Below are positions 12,631 to 38,144 of a stretch of DNA of 38,144 bases, piece after piece (within the stretch, counting starts at the first letter, position 1; every line of letters begins with the position of its first letter). A program made the translations under genes and the position numbers. Source of the stretch: a virus; IMG/VR virus record IMGVR_UViG_3300005916_000006, positions 1-38,144 of that record. One strand, written 5' to 3'. The notes under the pieces are model-generated. The model was not told the origin of the DNA, made no database searches, and saw only the letters and a list, made by a program, of their open reading frames with translations.

Positions 12631-13052
12631 AACGAATTCTGGTATCGGGATATTTCAGCCCTGTTCACGTTGGGCATCTTGAGTATTTTGAAGCTGCGAG
12701 AAAGTTGGGCGACGAGCTCATTGTCCTCGTTAATAACGATGAACAGGTCAAGCTAAAGGGTTCGATAGAATTCATGGGCGTTGCAGACAGGGCGCGGATT
12801 GTAAAGGCGTTGAGATCTGTGTCAACAGTCTTTGTGTCGATGGATTTCGACAGGTCTGTATGTCGGACGATTGAGATGGTTCACGAAGCCGTTGATGAAG
12901 GCGACGAATGGATATTCGCCAACGGCGGCGACCAGACGGCGGAAACGATTCCAGAGACAGAGGTGTGTGAAAAGCTGGGCATTAAGATGGTATTTGGTGT
13001 GTGTCCTCAGTTGCGGCAAAGCTCGGAGATTCTGAAGGCGGTCAAAGCATGA
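12627..13052 (+). CDS. Nucleotidyltransferase (cytidylyltransferase-like)
   Basis: 141 residues from ATG 12627 (ATGA overlap with the connector gene). A GYFSPVHVGH motif at residues 8-17 is the HxGH signature of the nucleotidyltransferase fold. KLGDELIVLVNND and KLKG follow, and a C-terminal QSSEILK is in the place of the TSS motif. The family transfers CMP or AMP to a phosphorylated sugar or alcohol, activating it (for example CDP-glycerol or ADP-heptose synthesis). Full length for a single-domain enzyme. It sits between two virion-assembly genes and overlaps both, which is unusual. A sugar substrate is suggested by the glycosyltransferase at 19145, but not shown. Confidence 0.85.
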   Translation: MKRILVSGYFSPVHVGHLEYFEAARKLGDELIVLVNNDEQVKLKGSIEFMGVADRARIVKALRSVSTVFVSMDFDRSVCRTIEMVHEAVDEGDEWIFANGGDQTAETIPETEVCEKLGIKMVFGVCPQLRQSSEILKAVKA

Positions 13053-14255: not shown

Positions 14256-15749
14256 ATGGCTAACCAGATCCAGATTATGAGGGGAACCGCCGCCGAACTC
14301 GTGTCTAAGGGCAACCTTGCAGCGGGTGAAATGGGGTTCAGTACAGACACATTCCAGATGCACGTTGGTAGCGGGGCTGCGAACTACGAAATCTTGATGC
14401 ACCAACTGTTCGGCGCGAACACGATGTTGATCGCTACTTCGGACAATACTCCTGTGGCGACGACGATTGCGGCAAGTCGTATTGTCGGCCGTAAGGCGTC
14501 TGGCGATATTGGCGCACTGACAGGTGCAGAGATTATAGCGATCCTGACTGGTCAAGCCGGTGCCGACTTCGCGATGAACTCCCACAAGATCACGGGCGTC
14601 ACTGACCCTACCGGCGCGCAGGATGCCGCCACCAAGGCGTACGTTGATGCTGTTGCACAAGGACTGACAGTCCATGCTTCTGTGGCGTGTGCTACGACTG
14701 CGAACATTACGTTGTCGGGCGAACAGACGCTTGACGGTATCTTGACATCGACGGACCGTGTTCTTGTTAAGAGCCAGACAGCTACTGAAGAGAATGGTGT
14801 CTACGTTTCGGCCGCAGGCGCATGGGCGCGCGCTGCCGATATGGACGCGGCTACTGAATTCGCAGGCGGCTTTGTGTTCATCGATGACGGCACAACGCTT
14901 GGTTCTACTGGTTGGGTGTGTAGTAACGAACCGGAAGACATCGTTGTTGACACGACTGCGATCGCCTTCGCGCAGTTCTCAAGCACAGGATACGTCACTG
15001 CCGGAACCGGCCTGACGAAGACTGGCAACGACATTGCGATCAGCGATACGGAATTGCTAGCACTCGCCGGCCTCACCTTCGCAGATCAGAAGATGATCGT
15101 TGGTAATGGCGCTGGCACTGTCACTACGGCTGACTGTACGACATTTGCGCAGACCATTCTTGACGACGCAGATCAAGCGACTGTTCAGGCTACGCTTGGT
15201 GTCGTTCCTGGTACGAATGTCCTTGCAGAGCAGACAATCGGCATTGCTGACAACAACCTTGTTGAAGTCGATGGCACGCCACTAGACACAGAGGTTGCAG
15301 TGTGGACTGCGACTGGTATCAACGGCCTATCCAAAGCTGAGACAATGGCTTTGCTGTCCGGTGGAGCTACGGCTTCATTTGCAATGAATGCGCAGCTGAT
15401 CACTGGCGTCCTCGATCCTGTGTCGGACCAAGACGCGGCAACCAAGAAGTGGGTCACCGACAACTTCACGTCCGGTACTGCTGCAACTCCTGCATTGGAC
15501 AATCTTGCAAGCGTCGCGCTTAACACTGCATTGCTTCCTGATGTAGCCGCGGCCGATGACTTCGGATCAGCCACTTTGCCGTTCAAAGATCTGTGGTTCG
15601 CTGGTAGTTCAGGAACCCCAGCGACGAACAATTACCAATTGACAGGCGCATCCACTTCGGGGACGCGCACGATTACAGCGCCGGACAAGTCGGGGTATCT
15701 ACTTCTGACGGCAGCGGCGAATATTGTGGATGGAGGATCATTTGTGTAG
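14256..15749 (+). CDS. Large tail fibre protein with Mtd-N-like start
   Basis: 497 residues from ATG 14256, with AGAGGTGA upstream. The first about 45 residues (IQIMRGTAAELVSKGNLAAGEMGFSTDT) look like the N-terminal domain of major tropism determinant-type fibres, which attaches the fibre to the tail. DAATKAYVD and DAATKKWVTD mark two repeats of the short helical segments in trimeric fibres. Residues about 265-310 (ELLALAGLTFADQKMIVGNG) recur in the fibre at 30597. The C-terminus is VDGGSFV. No enzymatic motif and no variable lectin domain are seen. Probably recognises or touches the host surface. Confidence 0.75.
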   Translation: MANQIQIMRGTAAELVSKGNLAAGEMGFSTDTFQMHVGSGAANYEILMHQLFGANTMLIATSDNTPVATTIAASRIVGRKASGDIGALTGAEIIAILTGQAGADFAMNSHKITGVTDPTGAQDAATKAYVDAVAQGLTVHASVACATTANITLSGEQTLDGILTSTDRVLVKSQTATEENGVYVSAAGAWARAADMDAATEFAGGFVFIDDGTTLGSTGWVCSNEPEDIVVDTTAIAFAQFSSTGYVTAGTGLTKTGNDIAISDTELLALAGLTFADQKMIVGNGAGTVTTADCTTFAQTILDDADQATVQATLGVVPGTNVLAEQTIGIADNNLVEVDGTPLDTEVAVWTATGINGLSKAETMALLSGGATASFAMNAQLITGVLDPVSDQDAATKKWVTDNFTSGTAATPALDNLASVALNTALLPDVAAADDFGSATLPFKDLWFAGSSGTPATNNYQLTGASTSGTRTITAPDKSGYLLLTAAANIVDGGSFV

Positions 15750-28470: not shown

Positions 28471-28499
28471 TTGACTATACTCTGGAATTTAGCTATACT
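28471..28499 (+). promoter_or_regulatory. Strong sigma70-type promoter P2
   Basis: TTGACT at 28471-28476, 17-base spacer, TATACT at 28494-28499, in the gap just after the tape measure. Transcription would start near 28506 and meet a terminator about 70 bases later. Confidence 0.75.
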
Positions 28500-28505
28500 A
28501 CTACT

Positions 28506-28579
28506 CAATAGACCTCTTAACTCTCGTGATGAGAAGGCGTCTTTGGCTCTGAGTTGGCGCTCAGAGCCTTTCCATTTTT
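28506..28579 (+). ncRNA. Candidate small RNA of about 74 nt
   Basis: Defined by promoter P2 and the rho-independent terminator at 28545-28579. The 5' 40 bases include a possible small stem (TCTC/GAGA). No open reading frame with a ribosome binding site lies inside. It could be a regulatory RNA, or an attenuated leader whose read-through feeds the tail-tip genes downstream. Confidence 0.4.
28545..28579 (+). terminator. Rho-independent terminator
   Basis: Perfect 9-bp stem GGCTCTGAG / CTCAGAGCC with loop TTGGCG, followed by TTTCCATTTTT. It would end both the tape-measure transcript and any RNA from P2. Confidence 0.85.
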
Positions 28580-28636: not shown

Positions 28637-30199
28637 ATGCCAAGGAACATCGTCAAGACGAGAGTACGTGTCTGGCACGACGACGACACAGAGGTTGATC
28701 TGTCGGATCGCGTGATTACTGGCCCTGTGGTTGCGGGTGACATTGACGCTGCTGATTACGAGTGTTCGATCACGTTCGACAACGCCCATGACTATGTGTC
28801 GCAGAATTTGTCCCTTGAGCCTGAAGACCAGCTGTCCACGTTGAACCAAGACGGCAGCTCCGCGAACGATCCGATACTGACAGAGAATCATGAAGTCCAG
28901 GTTGATTACGACACCGGGTCCGGCTGGGTTGTGCTGTTTCAAGGGTACTGCGGGGCGGACGTGGATAGCTTGGCTGTTGACTCGAAAATGCACACCGTTC
29001 TCTTTGCTCCGTTTGGCGTCACTCAGCCGATCAAGGAACGCGACCGCTTGGTGAATATCGTCTACAAAGACAGAGATCTGGCAACCTCGTTGTTGAGAAG
29101 CATTCTGATGGATTCAGGGTTCCTTGGTAAGCTGGCGCATGTAGTGATCGCGGACGATCCATATCTCCAGGTCACTGAGTACATAACGAAGACAGGTTCG
29201 ACGTGGGATGCGCTGCAAACTGCAATCGAAATTACGGGATACATATTGTCAGCGAGACATCATGCAGCGGGAGTAGCCTACGATGATGGCTCAGGAGAAA
29301 GCACGCCCGAAGAGGGCTTCTATCTAACGTTGGTAAACCCGCTACGCGACAAGACCGTGCCAGATCACACGTGGGCAGAAGAATGCAAACGCCGAAACGT
29401 TAGGTCGGGCCTTGAGGACGTCCGGACGTCCATTGAAGTTGTGTTCGAGCTGAGTAACGGAGCGCAGAAAATAACGACAGCAGCCAAGGATGAAGCAGCT
29501 CGTGCGAAGTACGGTACCCCAGCCGGCGACGGGACGAAACTGCATCGAGTGATGAGGTTGGTGTTGGATAACAATAGCCCAGTCAGAACACTTGCAGGAG
29601 CCGAGCGGTTGAGAGATTACGCAGCTCACGATCTGGGTTCGCCAAGCCCAGGCGTAGCGGTTGACCTGGATGTCTTGTGGGCAGAGCCCCAGTTGAATGA
29701 ATTGGTGGAATTCCAGTTCCTCGATTACACGATGCAGATTGGAATCACTGGTGTTGTGATCGACTTGTCTCCGGCTCTGGTAGGTGGTCGAACCACATAC
29801 ACTGGAGTTGCTGACATGGTGATCGGTCTGAGGGGCCGGTGGCTGAGTGGCGAGCTGACTGAAGAGGAGCGCCAACGCCAGCGCCTTGAGTGGCTCGAGG
29901 GAGGCATGACGAAGCTGCCCACACCGCAAGTATTGAGCTTTCGTAGATGGGCTTATCAAACGAGAACGGGTGAAACGCGCAGCGCAATGAGTATCAGATG
30001 GGCGCGGTGCAAGGCGTACTGGTATGGGTATACAGCCGTCTATCTATCCTACGAAGACCAGTTGCACTATCCTGTAGAGCCTACAACAACGTCCAGGAGT
30101 TCTTCGGTGACGATTGACCCGCTGCCGCATGGCGTCGACGTGTATTTCAAGTTGAGGAATTTCCCGGCAATATCTATGTCGCCGCAAGGAAGGAGATAG
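28637..30199 (+). CDS. Tail tip/hub structural protein
   Basis: 520 residues from ATG 28637, with GAGGGG at 28624-28629. The N-terminal part (VRVWHDDDTEVDLSDRVITG, ECSITFDNAHDYVS) and the middle (LRSILMDSGFL, TWDALQTAIEITGYIL) resemble distal tail or hub proteins that follow the tape measure. DVDLDVLWAEPQLNELVEF-like strands lie near residue 350, and the last about 90 residues (LSFRRWAYQTRTGETRS, then VYFKLRNFPA) look like a fibronectin-type fold. It probably closes the tail tube. Assignment rests on position and general fold; no enzymatic motif is seen. Confidence 0.65.
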   Translation: MPRNIVKTRVRVWHDDDTEVDLSDRVITGPVVAGDIDAADYECSITFDNAHDYVSQNLSLEPEDQLSTLNQDGSSANDPILTENHEVQVDYDTGSGWVVLFQGYCGADVDSLAVDSKMHTVLFAPFGVTQPIKERDRLVNIVYKDRDLATSLLRSILMDSGFLGKLAHVVIADDPYLQVTEYITKTGSTWDALQTAIEITGYILSARHHAAGVAYDDGSGESTPEEGFYLTLVNPLRDKTVPDHTWAEECKRRNVRSGLEDVRTSIEVVFELSNGAQKITTAAKDEAARAKYGTPAGDGTKLHRVMRLVLDNNSPVRTLAGAERLRDYAAHDLGSPSPGVAVDLDVLWAEPQLNELVEFQFLDYTMQIGITGVVIDLSPALVGGRTTYTGVADMVIGLRGRWLSGELTEEERQRQRLEWLEGGMTKLPTPQVLSFRRWAYQTRTGETRSAMSIRWARCKAYWYGYTAVYLSYEDQLHYPVEPTTTSRSSSVTIDPLPHGVDVYFKLRNFPAISMSPQGRR

Positions 30200-32212: not shown

Positions 32213-33472
32213 ATGGCTGCGATTGATGTAGGGGCAGCGGCGATTGACCGCGATTCAGCTGTTACCGCAGGAACTACATATCTGAATATCTCAAACCCGG
32301 TAAATGCCACAGGAATAATTACAAGTTTTGAGATTTACGCATTTACAGGGTACAGCATGACTGGAACCAACAAAGTCGGCACATTTAGTGTTGATGGATC
32401 AGGTAATTACACACCCAATGACTTTGAGACTATCGGAACAGTGACCGCTGGCAGCACGCAGACATTTAGCGGCCTTGACTGCGATGCAACCATTGACGAT
32501 ATAGTTGGAATGTACTTTTCCGTTGGAGGTCTAGAAAAATCTGATACGGGTGGTTCTGGTGTTTGGTATAAGGCTGGAGATCAATTTGGCGCAGGACAGC
32601 AACTGTATTTTCTGTACGACGCTGCTTATGATATAAGTGTATATGGAGAAGGAACTGCTCATGAAGCGCCTACAGTCACGACACAAGCGGCGAGCGCGAT
32701 TGAACAAACCACGGTGACTGGCAATGGGAACATTACAGATACAGGTGGAGTGAACGCTACCAGGCGCGGATTCTGTTATAGGGTCGGAACGTCAGGAGAT
32801 CCAACAACGGCTGATAGCGTCGCGTACGATGACGGCGACTTTGGAACTGGCGCGTACACCAAAGGGCTGACGGGTCTTTCAGCTGCGACAGATTACCGCA
32901 TAAGAGCTTACGCCGTTAACTCTGAGGGTACTAGCTACGGCGTGTCGTATGATTTCGAAACATTAGGCGAACCTATTGATATGGGGGCAGGAGCGATAAA
33001 TCGTGCGTCGTTCTACTCTGATGGACTAACCAGCTTCGGGTTAGACAATCCAGCAAATTTATCTGGAACGATTACCAGCGTAGAGATATGGGCTCATGAT
33101 TCGATGTTAGTAGGCACGATCAAGATCGTTACCGCCTCTAGGGATGGGGCTAAGTTCACGCCGCGTGATTCCGTCACCATTGGGAATGTCACTGCTGGAT
33201 CAAAACAAACAATCACAACCGACGAATCGTCTAACCCTATTGCTCTTGAAGTAAAGGCCGGGGACTACCTCGGCATATACTTTCAAGACGATTCAGGTGG
33301 AGACATCGAAGCAGATTTTGCGGGATTCTCCGGCGTATACTTCAAGAGCGGCGATCAAACTGGCGCAGGAGAACAGACATACACACTATCTGAGGGTACT
33401 GCAATAAGCCTATATGCAACAGGTGACGCGGAATCAGGCGTTCAGGCCAACATTATAATGGCTTGGGGATAA
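32213..33472 (+). CDS. Adhesin-like protein, A-Fn-A, paralogue of 17529
   Basis: 419 residues, same plan as the protein at 17529. A1 starts IDVGAAAIDRDSAV, a fibronectin-like domain lies at about 151-250 (TTQAASAIEQTTVTGNGNIT, then YRIRAYAVNSEGTSYG), and A2 starts near 252 (IDMGAGAINRASF). Both A copies end with QFGAGQQ/QTGAGEQ motifs. The C-terminus (GVQANIIMAWG) differs from its paralogue. It overlaps nothing and lies between a fibre and the tail-tip gene. A pair of such proteins may build two related receptor-binding or decorative structures. Confidence 0.65.
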   Translation: MAAIDVGAAAIDRDSAVTAGTTYLNISNPVNATGIITSFEIYAFTGYSMTGTNKVGTFSVDGSGNYTPNDFETIGTVTAGSTQTFSGLDCDATIDDIVGMYFSVGGLEKSDTGGSGVWYKAGDQFGAGQQLYFLYDAAYDISVYGEGTAHEAPTVTTQAASAIEQTTVTGNGNITDTGGVNATRRGFCYRVGTSGDPTTADSVAYDDGDFGTGAYTKGLTGLSAATDYRIRAYAVNSEGTSYGVSYDFETLGEPIDMGAGAINRASFYSDGLTSFGLDNPANLSGTITSVEIWAHDSMLVGTIKIVTASRDGAKFTPRDSVTIGNVTAGSKQTITTDESSNPIALEVKAGDYLGIYFQDDSGGDIEADFAGFSGVYFKSGDQTGAGEQTYTLSEGTAISLYATGDAESGVQANIIMAWG

Positions 33473-33486
33473 CAGCCGGAGGAAAA

Positions 33487-35133
33487 ATGAGCTATTCAAC
33501 GCTTAGGGGTGTACGGAATCTTGACACGCTGCACGCACTGCCTAGCCAATGGGCGAGCGACTTCAGCGAAGAGGTTCACGTCACGGCTGCTGTTGATACC
33601 GTTGCTCCTCTTACGCCGTCCTCGTTTGCCATTGCCGGAATAGCCGAAGGGATTACCCTGACATGGGTGAACCCTACACTCAACGATGATGGGAACCCGT
33701 GCTATGACCTCTCAGACATTGCGGTGTACCGCTCTGAGTCCGCCAGCATTGTCATAACGGACGATGAGACGTACGACAAAAAGACGCTGGTTGGCACGAC
33801 TGAGGCATACACATATCCCGCAAGCGATACGACGAAGACATACTATTTCGTCATCACGGCTATCGACACAAGCGGCAATGAATCAGCGGCAAGCGCTGAG
33901 CTGAGCGATACGTCAAACACTCCTATTGGTACGGCTCCTGTTATCCCAGATGACGCAAACGGCCTAATCTTCAAAGACTCTATCGGCGGCGACGGCGTTG
34001 TTGAGGGTTACGCCATGATGGGGATAGCCTTCCAGACACCACCATCGAGCGTTGTAGGGCTTCGCAGCATTAGACTGTGGTTCCAGTACACGGACGACGC
34101 AGGGACGAACTGGCGTGATGAGGACGGCAACGTAGATCCTGCACCGTCTTCCTGGGATTCTGGTACTTATTGGACAGAGCTGTTCCCTGAAGGGCTGATT
34201 GGGTGCATGCACAAAGACGTCCTGATGCAGACGAACATCGGCACGCGTGCCTATCGTTATTCCGCCACGTTCATCGGAGAGGACGACACAACCGAAAGCT
34301 CAATACCAGACACGGCAGGCGGCTCGACTACAGTCTGCGCGGCGAACAATAACAACCTAGTAGCCATCTCGATCTTCGCAATGAACATCGTGTGTCTTGG
34401 AGAGGTTGTCGCTGACAGCATCAAGGCGAATGCTATTACTGGCGACAAAATCTCGTCCGCCACTACCATTACGGCAGGAACTGGCAACGACGTTGGTGTG
34501 TTGGACGGCGCTGACGCAACCTATAGAATCTATGCCGGGCATGCAACCCCTGCTTCTGCCCCATTTCGCGTGACGAAGGCCGGGAAGCTGTTTTGTACTG
34601 GCGCTGACATCAGGGGAACGCTAGTAGCTGACGATATTGATTCTGGGACAATGAATTTCGCTCGGATCAGCCCGGCGTCAGTAGAGATCATCGCGACTAT
34701 GATGGAGAACAATTCAGTTGGCTCTTCGGCAATCGTTGATGGCGCTGTAACCGTAAACAAACTCAATATCAATGATACTGTTGTTTTCAAGGACGGAGCG
34801 ACATATCACAACATTACCGGCTGCGATTATATCACAAAGGACATTGCGGCTCACCAGTGGCTAGACCTCGGGAATGGTCTATGGGAAGTGTCATTGACGA
34901 ATTACATCAATATGACATCCGGAGTGAATAAAGACTTCCTGATTTACTCTGGTGGTGATCTGAGGTTGGATTCAGAGGATGATTTAATCGTACAGGTAAA
35001 CGCATCGTCCGTGCTGACTATAACAGGCATCGTGGCGACGGATTCTGTCTCTTTGAAGATCGGGCATGAAGGGCTGATAACCTGTGATGTTGGAGGGGCC
35101 ACTAGATATATTGCATTCAGGGAAGAAGCGTAG
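33487..35133 (+). CDS. Tail tip protein, Fn-III plus J-like C-terminus
   Basis: 548 residues from ATG 33487, with GGAGG at 33478-33482. Residues about 35-145 form a fibronectin-III domain (GITLTWVNPTLNDDG, then TKTYYFVITAIDTSGNESA). Further on, VADSIKANAITGDKIS and SAPFRVTKAGKLFCTGADI with GTLVADDI are typical of the C-terminal part of lambda J-like tip proteins, where fibre chains begin. The end (DSVSLKIGHEGLITCDVGG) is beta-rich. It probably carries the distal fibre and touches the receptor. Confidence 0.68.
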   Translation: MSYSTLRGVRNLDTLHALPSQWASDFSEEVHVTAAVDTVAPLTPSSFAIAGIAEGITLTWVNPTLNDDGNPCYDLSDIAVYRSESASIVITDDETYDKKTLVGTTEAYTYPASDTTKTYYFVITAIDTSGNESAASAELSDTSNTPIGTAPVIPDDANGLIFKDSIGGDGVVEGYAMMGIAFQTPPSSVVGLRSIRLWFQYTDDAGTNWRDEDGNVDPAPSSWDSGTYWTELFPEGLIGCMHKDVLMQTNIGTRAYRYSATFIGEDDTTESSIPDTAGGSTTVCAANNNNLVAISIFAMNIVCLGEVVADSIKANAITGDKISSATTITAGTGNDVGVLDGADATYRIYAGHATPASAPFRVTKAGKLFCTGADIRGTLVADDIDSGTMNFARISPASVEIIATMMENNSVGSSAIVDGAVTVNKLNINDTVVFKDGATYHNITGCDYITKDIAAHQWLDLGNGLWEVSLTNYINMTSGVNKDFLIYSGGDLRLDSEDDLIVQVNASSVLTITGIVATDSVSLKIGHEGLITCDVGGATRYIAFREEA

Positions 35134-35219
35134 TGAATATTTTGAACGGGGATGGCAGTTCTATACAATGGGATAGATATGAACAATGGTCGTTCGTAAC
35201 GTTTAGCTGGAAAATCTGA
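35133..35219 (+). CDS. Possible tiny protein (28 aa)
   Basis: GTG 35133 overlaps the tip protein stop (TAGTG) and runs 28 codons (starts MNILNGDGSSIQWDRYEQW) to TGA 35217. Composition is Trp/Tyr rich, and no ribosome binding site is close. It fills an otherwise empty 96-base gap. Weak support; may not be translated. Confidence 0.3.
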   Translation: MNILNGDGSSIQWDRYEQWSFVTFSWKI

Positions 35220-35229
35220 GGGAGGGAAC

Positions 35230-35715
35230 GTGAAGATACTTGCGGGCAACATCAAACAATTGGCAGACTCACTAGGCGCTATCGTGAGTGCCATCCCGCT
35301 TGAGATAAGCGCGGCGTACAAGCTGATGAAGGTTGCGAAGAAGGTCGGACTTGCACAGAAGGCATTTGAAGCGCGTAGGATTCAACTGCTGAATGAGTTC
35401 GGCCAGACGGAAGACGGCAAGTTGGTAACTGAAGACGGTACGCCGAATGGCCCAGTGAAGTTCGACGAAGGCGAGCAAGAGAAGTTCGGAAAGGCATTCT
35501 CCATTCTAGTGAACGAGGATGTTGAGCTGGACATCAATCCTATCTCGCTTGACCTGCTTACGTTGAGAGCTTCAGGGAATGCATACAAAGGGAAAGACGG
35601 AGAGCCGGTTACGGTTTTGCCGTCAATACTTCTAGGGCTTGACCCGATCATAGAGAAGGATGGCGAAGCTGATGACAAACGGACGGAGCCTGACGAGGGA
35701 CTACACAGGGCATGA
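35230..35715 (+). CDS. Hypothetical phage protein
   Basis: 161 residues from GTG 35230, with GGGAGGG at 35220-35226. N-terminal helices (AAYKLMKVAKKVGLAQKAFEA), then an acidic linker (GQTEDGKLVTEDGTPN) and a NPISLDLLTLRASGN segment with LPSILLGLDPIIE near the end. I have seen small phage proteins of this plan but cannot name a role. It overlaps the holin-like gene by 44 bases, so lysis-related timing is possible. Confidence 0.6.
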   Translation: MKILAGNIKQLADSLGAIVSAIPLEISAAYKLMKVAKKVGLAQKAFEARRIQLLNEFGQTEDGKLVTEDGTPNGPVKFDEGEQEKFGKAFSILVNEDVELDINPISLDLLTLRASGNAYKGKDGEPVTVLPSILLGLDPIIEKDGEADDKRTEPDEGLHRA

Positions 35716-35917
35716 GAGGCGGGAAGAATGCGCTCAGGGCGCGGCCATATCAGTAGAAGTGTCAAACCTGAAGACCTATCAAACGATTCAAAACGGAGCC
35801 TTGGATACGATCAGGAAGCAGTTGTGGGCGCTGGTTATCTTGATGCTGACTACGTTTCTGTCGGCGGCCGGGGCTTTGGCGTTCATGGCGATACAGTACG
35901 GGTTGACTAAAGCGTGA
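35672..35917 (+). CDS. Holin-like (XhlA-type) membrane protein
   Basis: 81 residues from ATG 35672, with AAGGA at 35656-35660; ATG 35660 is possible but overlaps that site. A soluble helical N-terminus (YTGHERREECAQGAAISVE, then a helix) is followed by one hydrophobic segment (about residues 53-77: LWALVILMLTTFLSAAGALAFMA). This is the plan of XhlA-type lysis accessory proteins. No endolysin is seen next to it, so the lysis role is not secure. Confidence 0.55.
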   Translation: MTNGRSLTRDYTGHERREECAQGAAISVEVSNLKTYQTIQNGALDTIRKQLWALVILMLTTFLSAAGALAFMAIQYGLTKA

Positions 35918-35955
35918 CGATACGCTAGGGTCGATCCACGAAAAGGAGCGGAAAC

Positions 35956-36180
35956 ATGTTTACATGGCTCAAGAAGAAGGTTCTCAATGATGTGATTGGT
36001 GGCGCAATTAGCCACTTTGTCACAAAGGAAAATTGGAGGTCGTTCGCGGACATGATCCTTGATGGCCTTGAGGAGCTGGCAGCGCGAACGGACAACACTC
36101 TCGACGATAGGTTTGTTGCTGGAATTCGGAAGGCTCTTGACATTCCAGACGACGACGAAGAGCAGGAGGCAACACAATGA
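35956..36180 (+). CDS. Small hypothetical protein after holin
   Basis: 74 residues from ATG 35956, with AAAGGAG at 35941-35947. Starts FTWLKKKVLNDVIGGAI, an amphipathic helix, then a second helix (ADMILDGLEELAARTDN) and RFVAGIRKALDIPDDDEE with an acidic tail. This resembles a short protein often seen near phage lysis genes; function unknown. Overlaps the exported protein start as ATGA. Confidence 0.6.
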   Translation: MFTWLKKKVLNDVIGGAISHFVTKENWRSFADMILDGLEELAARTDNTLDDRFVAGIRKALDIPDDDEEQEATQ

Positions 36181-36701
36181 AAAAGGCATTAGTTCTATCG
36201 CTTTTGATGTTGGCAATGTCGGCGGTCGCTTTCGCAGGGCCGAGTTTGAATCCGTGGGTTGAGGTGAACGTTCCTGAGATTGTCGGCGGCGTTGTACCAT
36301 CGCCCACTCTGGATGCAGGGATTACGCTCGAGGGGATGCTTTCGCCTGCGTGGTTTATCAACGTCGGATTTACGTATGACGACGCCGATCTTCTAGACTC
36401 AGACAACGACATGGGTTTGGGGTTTGAATCAAACATCGGATTCGACCAACAGGCGATCGTCAACACGGCAGGAACGCTCATCTACGGATGCGAGATTACA
36501 TTCGCGTGCGACATCACCTACAACATGAACTATCCGGCGGACATTCTAATGGTGGCCTTGGTTCCTAGATTCATGACGTCCGGGTATGTTGGTCCGCTCG
36601 AGATATGGGCCGGGCTGAATATCCCGTGGCAGGTATCCACGAGCAACTGGCTATTGCGCCCGTTGTTCGGTCTGAGGATTGACTTCGACATCGATCTGTA
36701 A
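36177..36701 (+). CDS. Exported, probable outer-membrane beta protein
   Basis: 174 residues from ATG 36177 (ATGA overlap). A Sec signal peptide is clear: Lys-Lys at 2-3, a hydrophobic core, and cleavage after AFA at about residue 20. The mature part alternates polar and hydrophobic residues (AGITLEGMLSPAWFINVGFTY, then LEIWAGLNIPW and LFGLRIDFDIDL), which fits a small beta-barrel or surface protein. No terminal aromatic residue is present, so barrel insertion is uncertain. Phage-encoded outer-membrane proteins can block further infection or alter host adhesion. Confidence 0.65.
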   Translation: MKKALVLSLLMLAMSAVAFAGPSLNPWVEVNVPEIVGGVVPSPTLDAGITLEGMLSPAWFINVGFTYDDADLLDSDNDMGLGFESNIGFDQQAIVNTAGTLIYGCEITFACDITYNMNYPADILMVALVPRFMTSGYVGPLEIWAGLNIPWQVSTSNWLLRPLFGLRIDFDIDL

Positions 36702-36712
36702 AAGGCAGCCTG

Positions 36713-36793
36713 ATGAAGGTTGCCCTCCTTGCGCAGTCGCGGGGTAATACGAGTTGCCCCGCGCGCGTTCTCGTACTTGGAGGTGCGGAATGA
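36713..36793 (+). CDS. Possible leader peptide (26 aa)
   Basis: ATG 36713 reads 26 codons (MKVALLAQSRGNTS...) to TGA 36791-36793, which overlaps the lipoprotein start as ATGA. AAAGG at 36700-36704 is eight bases away. It runs through the hairpin at 36738-36763. Could be a leader that couples translation to the lipoprotein, or noise. Confidence 0.3.
   Translation: MKVALLAQSRGNTSCPARVLVLGGAE
36738..36763 (+). other. Strong hairpin before the lipoprotein gene
   Basis: Ten-bp stem CGCGGGGTAA / TTGCCCCGCG (one T-G pair) with a TACGAG loop, in the gap between the exported protein and the lipoprotein. No T-run follows. It lies inside the possible 26-codon leader frame, so translation of the leader would melt it. 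Confidence 0.7.
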
Positions 36794-37638
36794 AGCGAAT
36801 ACTTCTACTTTTCCTGTTAATTGTTCCACTCGGCTGGTTGGCTGGGTGTTTCCCTACAAGCACAGTCAGCACGCTTACTCTGTCCGTTCCCGATTCCTCC
36901 TACCCGCCATGCGAAGTGACCTTGATTGCGCTTGGTGTGACGGGAGGGCAATATACGTTCTCAGTTGAAGGCAAGACGTACACTCAGACCAACAACACGC
37001 TGATCGTTACCATCAATGCGCTGCCAACTGATGTGACGGTAGTTTGGTTCGATGGCAGCGATTCACAGACGACTACTGAGACGATCTGGCTTCGCAATAC
37101 TGGCCCTGTCCCTGGGCGGCTTGTTATCAACTTCATCACTAATCAGTGGACACTGCACGCGAGGGAACGGTACATCATAACCTATCCCCGCGCCTACGAT
37201 CCTGAAGGTGGGCCCATCAAACTAATTGACGCCACAGTCGAGTGGGGGATATACGGAGGGCTTGCCGTGTTCTGCCCTCCTTATACTGGGGCGTTCCCGT
37301 GGGATGGCACGATCGAAGAGTATCACGTCAGGCTTGACACTGGGCGGATGATCTACAATGCCTTCATGTTCATTCAGGGGTGGGGTTTGTTCATCGACAG
37401 TCACAGTTCTAATCCTACGATGCTTCCATACTCGCCGCCTGACTGGGGGGTGTCTGGCTATCCTGGAGGCGCTACATGCGGATTGAAGTGGCCGACAGAT
37501 ACGCGGCAAGGCACAGACGTAACAATCACGACAACGTGGGAAGATGAGCAAGGTGCTACAACGCTGGACGTTCAGATGATACCGGCCAACCCGTACATCG
37601 GGTGTGGATCAGTTCAGACGCCTTCGAGCGTGCTGTGA
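36790..37638 (+). CDS. Lipoprotein, secreted by Sec and lipid-anchored
   Basis: 282 residues from ATG 36790, with TTGGAGGTG at 36778-36786. The signal peptide is MKRILLLFLLIVPLGWLAGC: lipobox LAGC with Cys 20 as the lipidated residue. Residue 21 is Phe, not Asp, so sorting to the outer membrane is expected under the usual E. coli-type rule. The mature part has TLTLSVPDSSYPPCEVTLIA and a PKD-like region, then YITYPRAYDPEGGPIKLIDA and a C-terminal region with six Cys. No enzyme motif. Phage lipoproteins can mask receptors (as T5 Llp does); this is an analogy only. It is coupled to the next gene by GTGA. Confidence 0.72.
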   Translation: MKRILLLFLLIVPLGWLAGCFPTSTVSTLTLSVPDSSYPPCEVTLIALGVTGGQYTFSVEGKTYTQTNNTLIVTINALPTDVTVVWFDGSDSQTTTETIWLRNTGPVPGRLVINFITNQWTLHARERYIITYPRAYDPEGGPIKLIDATVEWGIYGGLAVFCPPYTGAFPWDGTIEEYHVRLDTGRMIYNAFMFIQGWGLFIDSHSSNPTMLPYSPPDWGVSGYPGGATCGLKWPTDTRQGTDVTITTTWEDEQGATTLDVQMIPANPYIGCGSVQTPSSVL

Positions 37639-37727
37639 TCTGGTGGATGCTTGAAGGGATCATTGCAGCGCTGATCGGTATTGTGATTGGGATATTCCTC
37701 GGGTTGTTGACAACCGGGAATCTATAG
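37635..37727 (+). CDS. Tiny membrane peptide (30 aa)
   Basis: GTG 37635 overlaps the lipoprotein stop (GTGA). 30 residues: MIWWMLEGIIAAL then IGIVIGIFLGLLTTGNL, a single hydrophobic helix with Gly-xxx-Gly spacing. ATG 37647 is an alternative. Such peptides can insert in the inner membrane or regulate a partner. No homologue is recognised. Confidence 0.5.
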   Translation: MIWWMLEGIIAALIGIVIGIFLGLLTTGNL

Positions 37728-37850
37728 CCTTGCCATGAGCCCCCACGAGGAAGTTAGCGGGGTCGTAAACGTCTTCAACCGGGCAATTACACCTACAACC
37801 CTATACGAAGGCAATGGGGCCGTACGGACGATGACTGCAAGAGTTGTGTG

Positions 37851-37879
37851 TTGACCGCAAGACAGAGCTGTGCTATGAT
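37851..37879 (+). promoter_or_regulatory. Sigma70-type promoter P3
   Basis: TTGACC at 37851-37856, 17-base spacer, TATGAT at 37874-37879, in the 344-base gap after the membrane peptide gene. Transcription would start near 37886. Confidence 0.75.
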
Positions 37880-37885
37880 GTCCGG

Positions 37886-37968
37886 GTAAACCCGTACTTC
37901 TTCCAGCGTAGTGCGTGTTTCGCTCATTCAGGGAAGGCTCGTTCGTTCGCGGACGGGCTTTTCTGTTT
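37886..37968 (+). ncRNA. Candidate small RNA of about 83 nt
   Basis: Bounded by P3 and the terminator at 37934-37968. A hairpin CGGG-TAAA-CCCG (37883-37894) sits at its 5' end, so the transcript start may lie a few bases upstream. No reading frame with a ribosome binding site is present. May be an independent regulatory RNA of the phage. Confidence 0.45.
37934..37968 (+). terminator. Rho-independent terminator
   Basis: AAGGCTCGTTCG / CGGACGGGCTT pair with a TTCG loop, about 12 bp including G-U pairs, followed by TTTTCTGTTT. Ends the P3 transcript and any read-through from the late operon before promoter P4. Confidence 0.85.
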
Positions 37969-37997
37969 GATAACCCTTTGCAAATCCTTTGCTGCTT

Positions 37998-38036
37998 CCT
38001 CTTGACAAACCTCTCGAAACGTGCTAAGGTAAGTCA
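37998..38036 (+). promoter_or_regulatory. Sigma70-type promoter P4, second copy of the block
   Basis: TTGACA at 38002-38007, 17-base spacer, TAAGGT at 38025-38030. The 39-base block matches 1409-1447 at 32 positions, including both CCTCT boxes and AGTCA after the -10. It starts a new transcript right after the terminator. Confidence 0.75.
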
Positions 38037-38071
38037 TGGACACAGGGAACAGACAACAGGAGGAAAACGAA

Positions 38072-38144
38072 ATGAGCGAATCACGAGCCAGGCCAGAAAA
38101 TTGGCCGTATTATTCCGCGCTATTCCTCGACGGCTTCAAGGCTG
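38072..38144 (+). CDS. First gene after P4 (partial)
   Basis: Starts at ATG 38072 with ACAGGAGG at 38057-38064, the same site as the first gene behind P1. 24 residues are visible (MSESRARPENWPYYSALFLD...), and the frame runs off the window. Not identifiable. Confidence 0.55.
   Translation, partial: MSESRARPENWPYYSALFLDGFKA

Follow-up and report, generated by a model that had tools for sequence, protein, structure and literature searches.

Early-gene shut-off in tailed phages without their own polymerase is usually credited to transcription factors or RNases. A promoter followed by an intrinsic terminator within 100-200 nt, ahead of an operon, makes up the late leader of lambda (pR'-tR', 6S RNA). 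In T4, long (i.e. read-through) transcripts of genes e, soc, 49, and I-TevI have been described to form inhibitory helices at their translation starts (PMC3014915). DicF is an example of the trans-acting base-pairing sRNAs of bacteria and phages (PMC5069750). Here we describe a phage locus that can be compared with each of these. A promoter-like element and an intrinsic terminator lie directly ahead of the early genes, and the segment between them is complementary, beyond chance, to the translation start of the next gene and to those of other early genes. We consider it possible, at somewhat below an even chance, that the locus gives rise to a short terminated antisense RNA acting on early-gene starts, a lock in cis included.

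The locus was analyzed in a 38,144-base IMG/VR record (the window, i.e. the whole stretch of DNA under study). A 55,243-base contig (G001) represents the same phage, with one mismatch in 5,301 bases over the compared stretches (32844-38144), and extends 3.4 kb beyond the window end. Its two ends overlap by 126 bases with 122/126 identity, and its map therefore probably closes. All identified genes of the phage lie on the same strand, in the order terminase (at the window start), portal, protease, capsid, tape measure, tail genes, a lipoprotein, and a small membrane-protein ORF. The lipoprotein gene (36790-37638, + strand) is the last long late gene upstream of the boundary, and the late operon ends with the small membrane-protein ORF (37650-37727, + strand), a similar version of which is found in most close relatives. 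The first gene beyond the boundary starts with the ATG at 38072 (+ strand) and encodes a protein beginning MSESRARPENW..., with a match to a DnaJ-type zinc-finger motif that lies below the Pfam cut-off (E = 0.00057); genes for an SMC/AAA protein, a Rad52-like protein, and an exonuclease follow. Since the gene order passes from late to early across 37727-38072, this interval is, judged by gene content, a true late/early boundary, and the gene content on both sides agrees with the original prediction in this respect. Two reading frames in the interval were rejected as sources of a small protein, both lacking a Shine-Dalgarno (SD) sequence and without relatives found: a 53-aa TTG ORF (37844-38005) and a 39-aa ORF (37735-37854). 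A 19-aa GTG frame inside the unit has no SD either, and the candidate RNA contains no start codon with an SD.

The upstream element, P1 (37851-37879, + strand), is a sigma-70-like promoter, TTGACC-N17-TATGAT, with the -35 box at 37851-37856 and the -10 box at 37874-37879, as originally read from the sequence; a TGn extended -10 is present in addition. Only three + strand sites in the whole 38 kb window match the consensus at 10 or more of 12 positions. The probability of such a site was 0.005 in shuffles of 37728-37940 and 0.0007 when the TGn motif was required as well. The TG directly before the -10 box is a likeness to the promoters of this phage group itself; membership of P1 in the family of repeated early promoters described below was considered and rejected.

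Immediately downstream of P1 lies an 18-bp near-palindrome, GTcCGGGTaaACCCGtAC (37880-37897), unique in the window; about 0.27 palindromes of such quality are expected by chance in this gap, which makes it only suggestive. The original prediction placed a CGGG-TAAA-CCCG hairpin at the 5' end of the RNA. The inverted repeat is indeed there (37883-37894), but the start site expected for P1, 7-9 nt past the -10 box (37886-37888), falls inside it, and it is lost from folds of RNA that begins at 37886. A 5' hairpin in the RNA itself is thus rejected for starts at or after 37886. Because the near-palindrome straddles the expected start site, it is possibly an operator rather than a 5' RNA hairpin.

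The intrinsic terminator (37931-37968, + strand), which ends the late operon, consists of a 15-bp stem (37931-37964 in the full fold) with a TTCG loop and the tail TTTTCTGTTT, in agreement with the long stem and U-tract seen before. Together with the start expected for P1 it delimits a candidate short RNA of about 80-83 nt (37886-37968, + strand). The 83-nt segment folds with -29.6 kcal/mol (z = -3.5). Judged from sequence elements, it is a short non-coding candidate transcript bounded by its own promoter and an intrinsic terminator, as expected of an sRNA. No Rfam family matched it at gathering scores and none convincingly at relaxed E-values; a match to the hairpin ribozyme (E = 4, opposite strand) was dismissed as chance. 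No homologue of the candidate RNA was found in phages or viral contigs.

A further promoter right after the unit had likewise been noted, and it is present as P2, the early operon promoter TTGACA-N17-TAAGGT (38002-38030, + strand). P2 is part of a 37-nt block, TTGACAaaCCTCTCGAaACGtGcTAgtATgagTCAtG, with CCTC in front and a conserved spacer, which occurs in four copies in the 55-kb genome (1413-1449, 38002-38038, L014 1379 on the minus strand, and L016 1156 on the minus strand). The recurrence of this block suggests either a regulator common to the copies or a promoter class out of the ordinary.

A blind repeat search of 37400-38144 revealed an inverted match between 37901-37928 and 38071-38098. 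Its core is the antisense segment CGTGTTTCGCTCATT (equivalent to CGUGUUUCGCUCAUU; 37914-37928, + strand), which forms 14 Watson-Crick pairs out of 15 with AATGAGCGAATCACG (38071-38085, + strand), where the first early gene has its start codon and initial codons. For the core match, p was 0.004 when the upstream region was shuffled with dinucleotides preserved, and as the best upstream-to-start pairing it ranked first among 412 start sites of six phages; the pairing test was chosen after the repeat match had been seen, and the statistics on complementarity, those of the seed below included, are post hoc. In the predicted fold of a read-through RNA, the core of 37914-37928 pairs with 38071-38085 with a probability near 1. 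In RNA from the gene's own promoter (38002), the ATG at 38072 is mostly unpaired and the start is open; the mean unpaired fraction of the start region is 0.30 in the former and 0.68 in the latter. These predicted folds follow the pattern of T4 e and soc, with a start that is paired in the long and open in the short transcript.

The seed TTCGCTCATTCA (37919-37930, + strand) lies inside the candidate RNA, and other gene starts match it as well. Three more start regions share at least 10 exact complementary bases with the 83-nt RNA, namely those of the Rad52-like gene, a gene starting MSEPRLKW, and a gene starting MSDMQ; three further starts with at least 10 bases were reached by 3 of 3000 random 83-nt coding-strand segments drawn from the same genome. 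The 55-nt part of the RNA outside the terminator was scored separately from the terminator part, which has no such matches at phage start regions. At k = 10 the 55-nt part matched four starts, as many as in none of 2000 segments and none of 3000 base shuffles; it matched six at k = 9 (6/3000 shuffles) and 12 at k = 8 (5/3000). Start regions of five other phages had at most one 9-mer match each. All five best hybrids (-21.6 to -24.9 kcal/mol) involved genes outside the late operon. Prediction of targets among the phage's start regions, put forward originally as a check, thus gave complementarity at the next gene and at other early genes beyond chance, a property expected of the seed of an sRNA. 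A cruder score, a screen of the 55-nt part for best duplex energy, was not significant (88/200 shuffles), nor was the enrichment of early over late targets (Fisher 0.13-0.23). Against a null of antisense-strand segments, true anti-starts included, the count reached only the top 1-2%, and the seed is fully unpaired only with a start site near 37888. If the segment were the inverted remnant of one gene start, matches to the other MSE/MSD starts would follow automatically.

Relatives were found with the lipoprotein as query (about 71% identity) and comprise four distinct boundaries (L020/L021, L022, L023, and L024); further ones are a distant pair (L025/L026), a genome found via tail genes (G009), and L138, found via a shared 5' UTR element. 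The late operon ends in a terminator hairpin in all of these, and in nearly all a recognizable promoter and an early gene follow right after it. No consensus promoter precedes the terminator in any relative scanned. The terminator position is therefore conserved, P1 being particular to this phage. Relatives at about 60-75% protein identity lack both P1 and the seed, comparable cis pairing is absent from them, and the anti-start matches of their boundary segments are only of the SD type, arising from a CCTCC element. The seed evidence accordingly comes from one phage lineage, the window and G001 being nearly identical. Searches with the capsid, tape-measure, and zinc-finger genes and with exact DNA patterns yielded no near relative with this boundary, and no relative of the lipoprotein was found in bacterial genomes. 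Lack of conservation, named originally as an outcome that would speak against the idea, is thus observed in part: relatives keep a terminator at this position and a promoter after it, but have no counterpart of P1 or of the seed. The candidate sRNA itself fares similarly: its seed is complementary to start codons beyond chance, but neither promoter nor seed is conserved in relatives. On paper it resembles a base-pairing sRNA; membership in that class is not established, because the conservation expected of an sRNA is missing in these relatives and the transcript is a predicted one.

In the close relatives the terminator is preceded by a small hairpin of the CCTCC...GGAGG type and by a linker resembling TTTCGCT(T). 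A conserved RNA structure across relatives was considered and rejected; four close ones share hairpin, TTTCGCT-like linker, and terminator, and the MAFFT columns were misaligned with the window. The G009 boundary (L040 2433-2525) has an extended -10-like TGATATACT without a good -35 before the terminator; between the two, just past TGATATACT and just ahead of the terminator, the loop of a hairpin CTCTTC...GAAGAG exposes CACCUCCUU, which is the anti-SD sequence of 16S rRNA. In a distant relative, L057 14640-14755 (+ strand of G008) is a stand-alone unit of about 85 nt with a promoter (TTGACA-N17-TATAGT) and a terminator; it lies between two structural genes of the minus strand, in antisense orientation to them, and features a 5' hairpin and a CUCCUU stretch. 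Farther upstream in the window, in the 5' UTR of the lipoprotein gene (36720-36792), CCTCC (36724-36728) is complementary to the SD GGAGG (36779-36783), and the two can pair around an inner stem CGCGGGG/CCCCGCG and a loop TACGAG (36748-36753) that pairs with CTCGTA (36770-36775). This layout recurs in L022, L023, L024, L138, and G009, where the inner stems differ yet remain complementary, and no Rfam match was obtained for it. It is possibly a conserved pseudoknotted leader and looks like an SD-sequestering translational control element.

That two promoter-terminator units occur in one window had been regarded as unusual, and this is borne out. Of the three strong + strand promoter sites, two have a strong terminator within about 70-85 nt; locally shuffled windows gave a mean of 0.04 such pairs on the + strand. 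Two or more pairs were present in 2 of 300 shuffled windows, and in none of 300 when strong terminators were required. The co-occurrence of promoter-like and terminator elements is thus non-random. The other unit (28471-28578, + strand), TTGACT-N17-TATACT with the terminator GGCTCTGAG...CTCAGAGCC-TTTCCATTTTT, lies between the tape-measure gene and a gene at 28637 that has no evident promoter of its own; its predicted RNA is about 73 nt long. The small-RNA layer originally suggested by the two units is not demonstrated, because the target evidence for this second unit is weak (three 9-mer matches to start regions, p of about 0.025). On the minus strand, an 11/12 promoter-like site (12798-12825) lies inside a region of + strand structural genes, and of all hairpins in the window that resemble a terminator, the strongest (-24.5 kcal/mol, 15755, minus strand) lies just after the gene at 14256-15749; it may be a + strand stem read in reverse.

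Several explanations may account for this architecture. In the one we favor, the terminator would halt late transcription ahead of the early genes, and a P1 transcript would start at about 37886-37888 and end at the terminator after about 80 nt. With its central stretch (37914-37930), such an RNA would pair with UGAAUGAGCGAA, the start codon and codons 2-3 of Met-Ser-Glu/Asp early genes, and thereby block ribosome binding on the 38072 gene and at least three others, including the Rad52-like recombination gene. Given the complementarity to early start codons, the RNA, if P1 is active and the transcript accumulates, may silence early genes late in infection. In cis, a late read-through transcript would carry the same segment and fold back onto the start codon at 38072, and RNA from the 38002 promoter, without the segment, would be free for translation. 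That one boundary segment serves as an early-to-late switch, turning off a set of the phage's early genes in trans through the common motif UGAAUGAGCGAA and locking the first of them in cis on read-through late transcripts, we consider rather unlikely. The main rival, a real possibility if itself a doubtful one, is an ordinary insulated boundary at which a terminator is followed by the early promoter, with 37851 a weak promoter or one present by chance, and without a short RNA of any function. Terminator and promoter suffice for such an architecture, the relatives show just these two without a consensus promoter upstream, and the RNA has no homologue in phages or viral contigs. An insulated boundary leaves the complementarity to start codons unexplained, however, and sits poorly with a 10/12 site carrying an extended -10 (shuffle probability 0.0007 in this gap) and with the existence of two such units.

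The segment might alternatively matter only on read-through RNA, sequestering the 38072 start, with P1 irrelevant or weak. The adjacent gene is indeed its best pairing partner (14/15, rank 1 of 412), the pairing probability is near 1 in read-through but not in own-promoter RNA, and T4 e and soc offer a precedent (PMC3014915). A lock acting in cis alone does not predict that further early genes match the segment, or that a promoter is positioned so as to produce precisely this stretch, and we regard it as improbable. Very improbable, in our assessment, is an attenuated promoter with a leader of the lambda pR'-tR' (6S RNA) type, where an antiterminator would admit P1 transcripts to the early operon. 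Both units have the layout of promoter, short leader, terminator, and operon, the 28637 gene lacks an obvious promoter of its own, and the 38072 protein has a very weak match to a Q-like zinc finger (PHROG 6060, E = 0.008). This match is not significant and was not accepted as a Q-like antiterminator, the protein having only the DnaJ-type motif; moreover, the early operon is served by its own promoter (38002) instead of depending on read-through, and letting late transcripts through at this spot would be counterproductive.

If the antisense reading holds, a boundary-encoded RNA whose seed recognizes the sequence that early genes have in common around their start codons would amount to a simple switch after transcription, and the rule "anti-start seed, then terminator" could be searched for in other phages; an insulated terminator only would be routine. 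Like lambda pR'-tR', the locus has a promoter and then an intrinsic terminator within 100-200 nt before an operon; unlike there, what follows is an early operon with a promoter to itself, and no antiterminator was identified. With DicF-type sRNAs the candidate shares its short length, the complementarity of its seed to translation starts, and termination of the Rho-independent kind, but it belongs to no Rfam family and its proposed targets are the phage's own early genes, reached via a shared start-codon motif. As in T4 e, soc, 49, and I-TevI, where a start codon or SD is sequestered in longer transcripts and free in own-promoter transcripts, the start at 38072 is predicted to be closed on read-through RNA and open on RNA from its own promoter. 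In contrast to T4, the pairing arm of this phage lies about 140 nt upstream, ahead of both a terminator and a second promoter, and would in addition be produced as a free short RNA.
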